Shown here: positions 3,770-8,719 of the stretch, piece by piece | Numbering within the stretch: position 1 is the stretch's first letter | Layout of the letters: each line of letters opens with the position of its first letter | NCBI GenBank assembly: GCA_014879445.1 | Contig: JACSSC010000033.1 | Location: 1-43,492, forward strand | Length of the DNA stretch: 43,492 bases | Direction: 5' to 3' | Source: Candidatus Competibacteraceae bacterium | GTDB lineage: Bacteria; Bacteroidota; Bacteroidia; CAIKAF01 | Notes under the pieces: model-generated | Database searches by the model: none | The model's input: only the letters and a program-made list of their open reading frames with translations | What the model was told of the DNA's origin: nothing | Translations under genes and position numbers: made by a program

Positions 3770-5089
3770 TTATGATTTAACTTTGAAGCCAATATCGGCG
3801 GTAATACCCAACTGAAGGAGGAATCCGGAAAGACCATAACTTTTAAGTGAAGGATCAGAAAACTCGAACAAATGCAACATTGGCATGGTGTAACGAAAGG
3901 TTGGTTTTAATTTTAATTGTTTATTGAAAAGAGAAAACTTATATCCGAAATGCATAGTAAAATCGAATTGGTTATTGAACTTGTCGGTCAGAATGGACTG
4001 ACTCACATTTGAATCGTTATTGATGACGGCACCACTACTATTTTTGATTCGATAATCGGCAAGATACATATTCCAAAAAGAGAAAATAAAGCCACCACCA
4101 ACAACAACATTACTAACTTCATAATCGGCAGTAGCGTACATACCCATGTAATGGATTGTGCCATATTCGTCCACATTATAGGTTTGTGGGGGATTTTGAT
4201 TAGAATCGTAGGCCAAGTAATAGGAATGAAATCTTTTGTTCCAGAAGTGAATGCCTGCATGAAGTGAAAGAGATGGGAGGGCATTAAAACGCACACCTGT
4301 GCCAACATCATAACCAAAGCCATTGCTGGTTGTAATGATAACAACATTAAGTTGTTCAGGATAAGAGACAAATCCGTATGAGGCGTAAAGGGGGAATTCG
4401 ATACCGAGACGTGAACCATGAAGTTGAGAGTTATATTTTCTAGGTTCTTTGGTTTGGGGCTTAGGGATATATTCCTTTTCAGGACGTGTAAAATTGCCAT
4501 CTTCAATACGCCATGTGTTGCCTGGTTTCCCTTGTTTAGTCCACTCATTATATTCTTCAACTACGGCTTCTTTTTCTTTGAATGTGTAATATTTATCGTC
4601 CACTTTTTTGGTCAAAGCCGGATAATCTTCTATCATTGGCAATACAGGATTCCGAAAGTTTTTAAAAGAGAGTTCAGCCCATTGCGAGGTGGATTTTTTT
4701 TCAATGAAATAGCGGTAATCTGTTTGGGATTTGTTACCTTTTTTTGTTCTGTATGCATATTCAAACAAAGACAAATCGCCGGAAATAATTTGTCGAACAA
4801 AATACTCTTTACCATCAATCAATCGGGATAAATATTCTTGATCTTCAAACCTAAAATATCTTATCTCTTTAGGTGAAAATTTTTCCTGTGTATCACTTCC
4901 ATTCCTGTAAAAAGAAATAGATTTTGAGAAGCGATCGTCTCTAACTGTTTTAATAAGTCCATGAATTGAATCACCATTGATTGTAACAAGAACTGCCGGA
5001 ACATAATCATCATTTGCCTGAGCTCTCAATACATGAGAAGCTGCTAAGAGCATAAAAATGGATATAACAGCTTTGCGAAACATAAGCAA
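3770..5089 (-). CDS. Hypothetical secreted protein, probable outer-membrane beta-barrel
   Basis: This 439-residue protein is not recognised. Residues 1-23 look like a Sec signal peptide ([21 protein letters not shown], cleavage after the AQ). Residues about 30-170 contain a short motif-like start ([15 protein letters not shown]) and charged, tyrosine-rich strands. From about residue 220 onward the chain alternates aromatic and polar residues (for example [22 protein letters not shown]) and ends in [15 protein letters not shown], the pattern of an outer-membrane beta-barrel. A second in-frame ATG at residue 3 is an equally good start. It stands alone: 71 bp from hutU and divergent from the peptidase gene. 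An outer-membrane location is inferred from strand pattern only; no function is proposed. Confidence 0.75.
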
Positions 5090-7228: not shown

Positions 7229-8719
7229 TTATACATGAACTGTTATTGCGACTGGAAAAAGAATAGTAAATTTATTACCTTGCCCTGATTCGATTTGCAA
7301 ACTGCCACCCAATTCCTGTACAAAAATCTCGACCAGTTTAAGGCAAAGTAAATCACGATTATTCAAACTATCTTCAGTAATTGAATTCCCGTTATCTTTC
7401 ACAACAACCTGATATTGGTCATCAAATGATTGCATAGTAATTGTCAAAGAGGCGTTACTAACATGTTGGAATGAGTGGTGATATGCATGATTAGTAATCT
7501 CGTAAATTATCAAAGATAAAGGAAGTGCTTTACTTACATGAATAGCAATATCATTAATAGCGATATTAATATCAATTTTAGATTTGCTGCTATTCATGGA
7601 CTCGACCAAACCAATGATACGGTAAATGACTTTATTGAATCGGATACTTTCATAATCATACGACTCAAGAATGATTTCATGTACACCTGAGATGCCAAGT
7701 ATATGTGATTTGAGGTGAAGAAGATTTGGAGCTTGGGAAATATCTGTTTTATTGAGGTAATACGAAACAATCGCATTGACAATCGCATTATTAGATTTTG
7801 TTCTGTATTTAATTTCGTTCATCAGATTTTTTTTGTCTTCAAGTAATTGAGACAAATGCATCAATGCTTTATTACGTTCTTGCGATTCTAAATAAAGAGC
7901 AATAAGCTGTGCAATCAGCAGGCCAAATTTCACTTCATACACCGACCATTTGCGCATGGTGCCGGTATGTTCAAAGCAAATAGCACCAATCATAAGCGAA
8001 TTGGAACGAATAGGCACGTCAAGCATGGAGGAAATATGATACGGCAATAAGTATGAGTTTACCAACTCGGCGGTTTGAGGTTCGTGTAATACATCATCAG
8101 TAACAATCACATCATCCCGACAAAGCATTGCAAAATACTGTGGGAACTCTTCCTTATAAATACGCTGCCCCAACATCTGGTTAATTTCATTATTAACCTT
8201 ATCTACCTGCAAGCTAGCCACACATTCAACATAAGTTTTATCATTGTCGAACATCCAAATACTCAATCTATTTACATCAAGAGCTATATGAGCTTTGCGC
8301 ATAATTTCGATGAAAGCATCTTCCACAATATCGGTTCTCAGTTTTGATGACTTGCTAAGGGCCTCAATAAGTTTAACCTTTTCGGCAATAGACGATGAAA
8401 ATGAATCTTGCTGTATCGCAACAGAAAAAAAGAATACTTTTTCTGAATCGTTTTGAAAAATCTTCAATGTTGCTGGTAAAGCATCATTATTTGCATCGAG
8501 CAAACAGATATTATCAAAAGATGAATTTGGAGGTGATTGAAGAAACTGTGAGATGAGATTATCTACATTATTTTTATGAAGAATCGAGCTCAAATGATGA
8601 TTGGTTTTGACGGCAAGTTTTTCGACGGCAGCTTGATTGGCATGAATAATCAATCCATTATCATCTATCGAAACGATAATATCGCTGACCTGATCAAGCA
8701 TCTCAAGGGTTAGTTTCAT
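7229..8719 (-). CDS. PAS-GAF sensor protein with degenerate HisKA_2-type histidine kinase core
   Basis: This is a 496-residue soluble signalling protein with no membrane segment. Residues 1-110 form a PAS domain (DQVSDIIVSIDDNGLIIHAN). Residues about 125-285 form a GAF domain (MLDVPIRSNSLMIGAICFEH), followed by a helix at 286-312 and an ATPase-like domain at about 385-490. The helix NEIKYRTKSNN (301-311) aligns with the HisKA_2 phosphoacceptor motif EIHHRVKNN, but the acceptor histidine is K304 and its neighbour is Y305. In the ATPase domain the N-box E407 and N410 and a DNG motif (442-444) remain, while the glycines of the later G-box are largely gone (DLLCLKLVE). It therefore looks like a pseudokinase or a kinase for a noncanonical residue. 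No response regulator is adjacent; the next upstream gene is the riboswitch-linked TonB receptor. Confidence 0.85.
   Translation of the reverse strand: MKLTLEMLDQVSDIIVSIDDNGLIIHANQAAVEKLAVKTNHHLSSILHKNNVDNLISQFLQSPPNSSFDNICLLDANNDALPATLKIFQNDSEKVFFFSVAIQQDSFSSSIAEKVKLIEALSKSSKLRTDIVEDAFIEIMRKAHIALDVNRLSIWMFDNDKTYVECVASLQVDKVNNEINQMLGQRIYKEEFPQYFAMLCRDDVIVTDDVLHEPQTAELVNSYLLPYHISSMLDVPIRSNSLMIGAICFEHTGTMRKWSVYEVKFGLLIAQLIALYLESQERNKALMHLSQLLEDKKNLMNEIKYRTKSNNAIVNAIVSYYLNKTDISQAPNLLHLKSHILGISGVHEIILESYDYESIRFNKVIYRIIGLVESMNSSKSKIDINIAINDIAIHVSKALPLSLIIYEITNHAYHHSFQHVSNASLTITMQSFDDQYQVVVKDNGNSITEDSLNNRDLLCLKLVEIFVQELGGSLQIESGQGNKFTILFPVAITVHV

Follow-up and report, generated by a model that had tools for sequence, protein, structure and literature searches.

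A gene in the window, by which we mean the whole stretch of 43,492 nucleotides analysed here, encodes a PAS-GAF protein whose HisKA_2 core was predicted to have lost its phosphoacceptor histidine. The question arises whether such a protein can still be a kinase, and whether it has been retained for some other role. Pseudo-histidine kinases are an accepted concept, but few of them have been characterised. The best reading of the data below is that the protein is a HisKA_2-class pseudo-histidine kinase retained by selection.

Domain organisation of the protein

The coordinates and strand of the open reading frame at 7229-8719 (minus strand, as for all features of the gene below) were verified; the frame is complete, codes for 496 amino acids and represents a real gene, with orthologues at loci L002 and L003. 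The domain order is PAS, GAF, a pseudo-HisKA_2 segment and HATPase. The PAS domain (about residues 13-100, 8420-8683) matched the Pfam profile PAS_8 under its cut-off (E=6e-4, 20.0 bits), and the AlphaFold model places strands at residues 14-100. The GAF domain (about residues 132-276, 7892-8326) scored 42.2 bits with PF01590, the cut-off being 22.4. A DHp-like helical hairpin, located by PF07568 and by the model, occupies residues 286-352 (7664-7864) within helices 260-324 and 330-352, and is followed by the CA (ATPase) domain (residues 358-491, 7247-7648), which belongs to HATPase_c by profile (PF02518, 31.3 bits against a cut-off of 26.4).

With the HisKA_2 profile itself (PF07568) the window protein gave 19.1 bits, below the curated cut-off of 22.3, and the orthologue in genome G006 gave 19.8 bits, also below it. 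The orthologue in genome G001 scored 39.8 bits, above the cut-off although its acceptor histidine is gone, thus a profile match can hide catalytic loss.

In the AlphaFold model (pLDDT 88.5, mostly about 90 in the CA domain) the PAS, the GAF, the two-helix hairpin and the ATPase fold are intact, and among its structural matches was the histidine kinase domain of EL346 (TM 0.64-0.68 by target length). EL346 (PDB 4R39/4R3A), a solved HWE/HisKA_2 kinase, is also the closest solved kinase core by sequence; it differs in its sensor, which is LOV and not PAS-GAF, and in its intact motif, EVQHRVKN. The model and the catalytic residues together point to a protein in which the fold has probably been kept and catalysis lost.

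The phosphoacceptor position

The homologues came from three sources: 60 near relatives, 395 class genomes and a scan of genome contigs. The alignment comprised 48 homologues, column counts were taken over 40 His-bearing relatives, and the tree contained 45 rows. The motif of the His-bearing relatives in this alignment is E-[IV]-[HN]-H-R-V-K-N-N, and residues 302-310 of the window protein read EIKYRTKSN, as had been described. The loss of the phosphoacceptor was confirmed, while the position assigned to it, K304, turned out to be one residue off. The invariant histidine is the one preceding the arginine; it is found in column 305 in 40/40 His-bearing relatives, and the window protein has Tyr there (TAC, 7805-7807). 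Since the alignment and the EL346 motif give this register, the lost phosphoacceptor is residue 305, K304 (7808-7810) merely adjoins it, and K304 is ruled out as the acceptor position. The conservation of column 304, proposed earlier as a check, is that of a variable site, with His or Asn in nearly all His-bearing relatives and Ile in L060.

The acceptor loss is not unique to the window sequence, being found in two orthologues from other genomes. The E-x-x-H-R histidine of HisKA_2/HWE kinases is missing from all three proteins: residue 305 is Phe in G001 (TTC, motif EVKFR) and Asn in G006 (AAC, motif ETNNR). E302 and R306 of the DHp are retained, and the VKNN which follows the acceptor is not (TKSN, VRSS and AKYI). 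No conserved histidine was found elsewhere in the first helix, where a lone His near residue 289 is not common to the orthologues, and none of the direct orthologues has His at 304 or 305. A sequencing or assembly error in a histidine codon can practically be dismissed; TAC is indeed one step from CAC, but the independent genomes, which have Phe and Asn at 305 and have lost four further catalytic residues along with the His, refute it.

The ATP site

Judged by its residues, the ATP site has suffered more than the original prediction supposed, because the true Mg-chelating position is not N410 but 411, which is His. E407 and D442-N443-G444 are intact in the window protein, so this part of the earlier description stands; E407 matches a Glu which, in the HWE/HisKA_2 superfamily, stands where the first Asn of the N-box would be (PMC12148442). 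N410, listed with them, is not the Mg-chelating residue. The N-box Asn with this role in HisKA_2/HWE kinases (PMC12148442) falls in column 411, where it is present in 40/40 His-bearing relatives and replaced by His in the window protein (7487-7489), Tyr in G001 and Ile in G006. The G-boxes are degenerate, as predicted: the D-box D442-N443-G444-N445-S446 (7382-7396) keeps DNG and has lost the second Gly (column 446; S/E/E in the three proteins), and the Gly of the G2-box, column 459 (7343-7345), is Cys in the window protein and in G001 and Glu in G006. The N-box Asn and the G-box glycines expected of HATPase_c are therefore lacking. E407 and DNG being present, the window protein may still bind nucleotide weakly.

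In RT-HK, a HisKA_2/HWE kinase, a single mutation, be it of the His or of the Mg-binding Asn, is enough to abolish autophosphorylation (PMC12148442). Because of this analogy it is strongly implied that the three proteins would not autophosphorylate, and their residues make autokinase or tyrosine-kinase activity very unlikely.

Orthologues and the origin of the losses

Identity to the window protein is 41% for the G001 orthologue, from the same genus, and 35% for the G006 orthologue, from the same family; all three are full-length open frames, with 35-41% identity, and they form a clade with 100/100 support in the 45-row tree. Five losses are common to the three: H305 (Y/F/N), N309 (S/S/Y), N411 (H/Y/I), G446 (S/E/E) and G459 (C/C/E), at positions conserved in 38-40 of the 40 His-bearing relatives. 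The G006 protein additionally lacks Glu407, which is Gln. Common descent with the His-bearing HisKA_2 kinases is indicated by the GAF, DHp and CA regions, which can be aligned with the 40 relatives. The alignment and the tree show that the ancestors of the window protein belonged to a His-bearing PAS-GAF-HisKA_2 family of Bacteroidota, and that the catalytic residues were lost in the lineage leading to the three proteins.

On the tree the loss of the histidine requires two changes, one in these three proteins and a separate one in G090 (L035), in which H305R, N411F and a deletion of the D-box DNG were found in a group that is otherwise His-bearing. The G090 row is long-branched and its exact placement is less sure, while its group is supported 100/100. 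This parallel, independent loss suggests a tendency of the orphan kinase family towards pseudokinase conversion. In two relatives of G090 (L028 and L033) the His is present and the second D-box Gly is already missing.

Constraint and distribution

Domain identity among the three orthologues is 22-30% in the PAS and 48-51% in the GAF, the most conserved part. In the ATPase domain outside the catalytic boxes the three are 30-39% identical, which equals the mean of 33% in His-bearing pairs chosen for a similar divergence of the GAF. The identity of the H-box and N-box falls from 79% and 76% in His-bearing pairs to 36-43% and 29-50% in the three, and that of the DHp outside the H-box is 30-44%, if anything below the His-bearing pairs (mean 51%). 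For the last 73 codons, compared between G001 and G002, we obtained dN 0.077, dS 1.07 and dN/dS 0.07, a value which refers to two relatives and not to the window gene, and of which the G002 copy may be broken. Strong constraint is thus shown for the ATPase C-terminus, including the degenerate G-boxes; selection on the helical hairpin and on the remaining ATPase fold is inferred.

The distribution of the gene is patchy: it occurs in 3/16 family genomes, with a fragment in a fourth, G002. This fragment (L016:1-570, G002:C66) comprises the last 73 codons only, joined to unrelated sequence in which there are repeat-like NHREHKG frames, and lies 348 bases from the contig start, where truncation and an assembly break are indistinguishable; no further pieces of the gene were found in G002. 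The gene is dispensable, since it is carried by 3/16 family genomes and G002 has only its last 73 codons.

Genomic neighbourhood

The neighbours of the window gene are genes for a TonB-dependent receptor on one side and a GHMP kinase on the other, all on the same strand. The G006 orthologue is at a contig end, the neighbours differ across the three genomes and no conserved operon partner was found among them; a scan for promoters and terminators gave results no better than shuffled sequences. A WD40-repeat protein gene (L069:11848-13803) lies directly upstream of the G001 orthologue, and a 439-residue frame of the window (3773-5089, minus strand, TTG start as listed) has no Pfam match.

It had been remarked that no response regulator is adjacent, and none was found on the whole window contig. 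This is uninformative, since the His-bearing relatives also have none: at the loci examined no response regulator was found, save a receiver-bearing 812-residue frame in L055. Orphan status is usual for the PAS-GAF-HisKA_2 family. The genome of the window (G000) contains 21 receiver matches. It also has two ordinary HisKA_2 genes, and after each of them comes a response regulator gene. Ordinary HisKA_2 kinases are present in all three carrier genomes (3/3) as against 3/13 other family genomes, a co-occurrence which is suggestive and comes from one small related group. Between G000, G001 and G006 the ordinary kinases do not pair off as one-to-one orthologues, and a common partner kinase among them was rejected.

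The His-bearing PAS-GAF-HisKA_2 kinases of Bacteroidota (L004, L022, L024-L027, L029, L046-L054) resemble the window protein in their length of about 500 residues, in homology from the GAF to the C-terminus and in having no response regulator next to them at the loci checked. They differ in having the full catalytic set, and one clade of the relatives lies in paa clusters while the window gene does not. At nine loci of this clade (L072:8076-9239, L073:8947-10461, and L046-L049 and L052-L054 near 7.7-9.2 kb) a His-bearing GAF-HisKA_2 gene stands between paaD and paaG of a phenylacetyl-CoA epoxidase cluster, in the order paaA-B-C-D-kinase-paaG, which suggests that the clustered relatives are a phenylacetate-linked sensor. 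A family-wide association with phenylacetate was rejected: paaA occurs in 21/24 carriers but also in 284/395 class genomes, and because it is so common only the physical clustering in the one clade is informative.

Discussion

We favour, at odds of roughly two in three, a HisKA_2-class pseudokinase which has lost catalysis, whose fold is kept under selection and which would work by ligand-gated binding of a partner. The lost catalytic residues, the fold and the purifying selection support the original prediction as regards catalysis, while ligand gating and the partner are inferred only. A change in the ligand state of the PAS or GAF domain would shift the helical hairpin, and this shift would alter the affinity for another signalling protein, for instance a response regulator or an active kinase whose gene lies at another place in the genome.

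The closest precedent is DivL of Caulobacter, a HisKA-class protein. Like the window protein it bears PAS, has Tyr for the acceptor His, keeps its fold and lacks kinase activity, having been reused as a binding module; it has neither kinase nor phosphatase activity and binds DivK~P through its old kinase core (PMC4211667). The specific binding of DivK~P persists in the Y550F mutant (PMC4211667), which fits the Y/F variation at residue 305. DivL differs in being tied to DivK/CckA and in still binding ATP weakly (PMC4211667), whereas the window family has a HisKA_2 core, Y/F/N at the acceptor among orthologues, and no Mg-binding Asn. Partner binding, DivL-like in principle, is most likely the mode of action; the same docking mode should be assumed with caution, given the Asn of G006 and the lost VKNN motif. 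A subgroup of EL346-like LOV histidine kinases in the same HWE/HisKA_2 superfamily also lacks the acceptor His, as noted from an alignment (PMC10359499); these have a LOV sensor, while the window family has PAS-GAF and additional N-box and G-box losses.

A special case of the favoured explanation, in which the inactive DHp docks a response regulator as in DivL and titrates or dephosphorylates it, seems rather doubtful. The DHp helices with E302 and R306 are present, and in DivL a DHp that performs no catalysis does bind DivK~P (PMC4211667), but the VKNN motif is lost, the DHp outside the H-box is if anything less conserved in the three than in His-bearing pairs, and no cognate response regulator was found on the window contig or at the relatives' loci examined. 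That the gene is a decaying relic, a dispensable orphan kinase which lost catalysis and has no present function, is unlikely: the few carriers, the C-terminal fragment beside unrelated sequence in G002 and the unconserved neighbourhood would agree with it, but three genomes keep full-length open frames at only 35-41% identity, with a GAF that is 48-51% identical and the low dN/dS at the ATPase end. The suggestion that the protein is an active kinase of another kind, an ATP-binding enzyme whose target would be Tyr305 or a residue in some other protein, draws on E407, DNG and the Tyr at the acceptor position. It is disfavoured and highly improbable, as Tyr305 is Phe or Asn in the others, the Mg-binding Asn411 is His, Tyr or Ile, Gly446 and Gly459 are replaced, and G006 lacks even the Glu407 equivalent.

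Returning to the pseudokinase, a more definite proposal can be put forward only tentatively, namely that these are lineage-specific PAS-GAF HisKA_2 pseudokinases which would sense a small molecule and capture, in a ligand-dependent manner and without phosphotransfer, an active kinase or a response regulator whose gene lies elsewhere. No paper on such a family was found in the literature searched, which largely excluded subscription papers. The His-bearing relatives, the three-species clade without the catalytic set and the independent second loss form a small natural series, which could be used for asking why histidine kinase cores persist after catalysis is gone.
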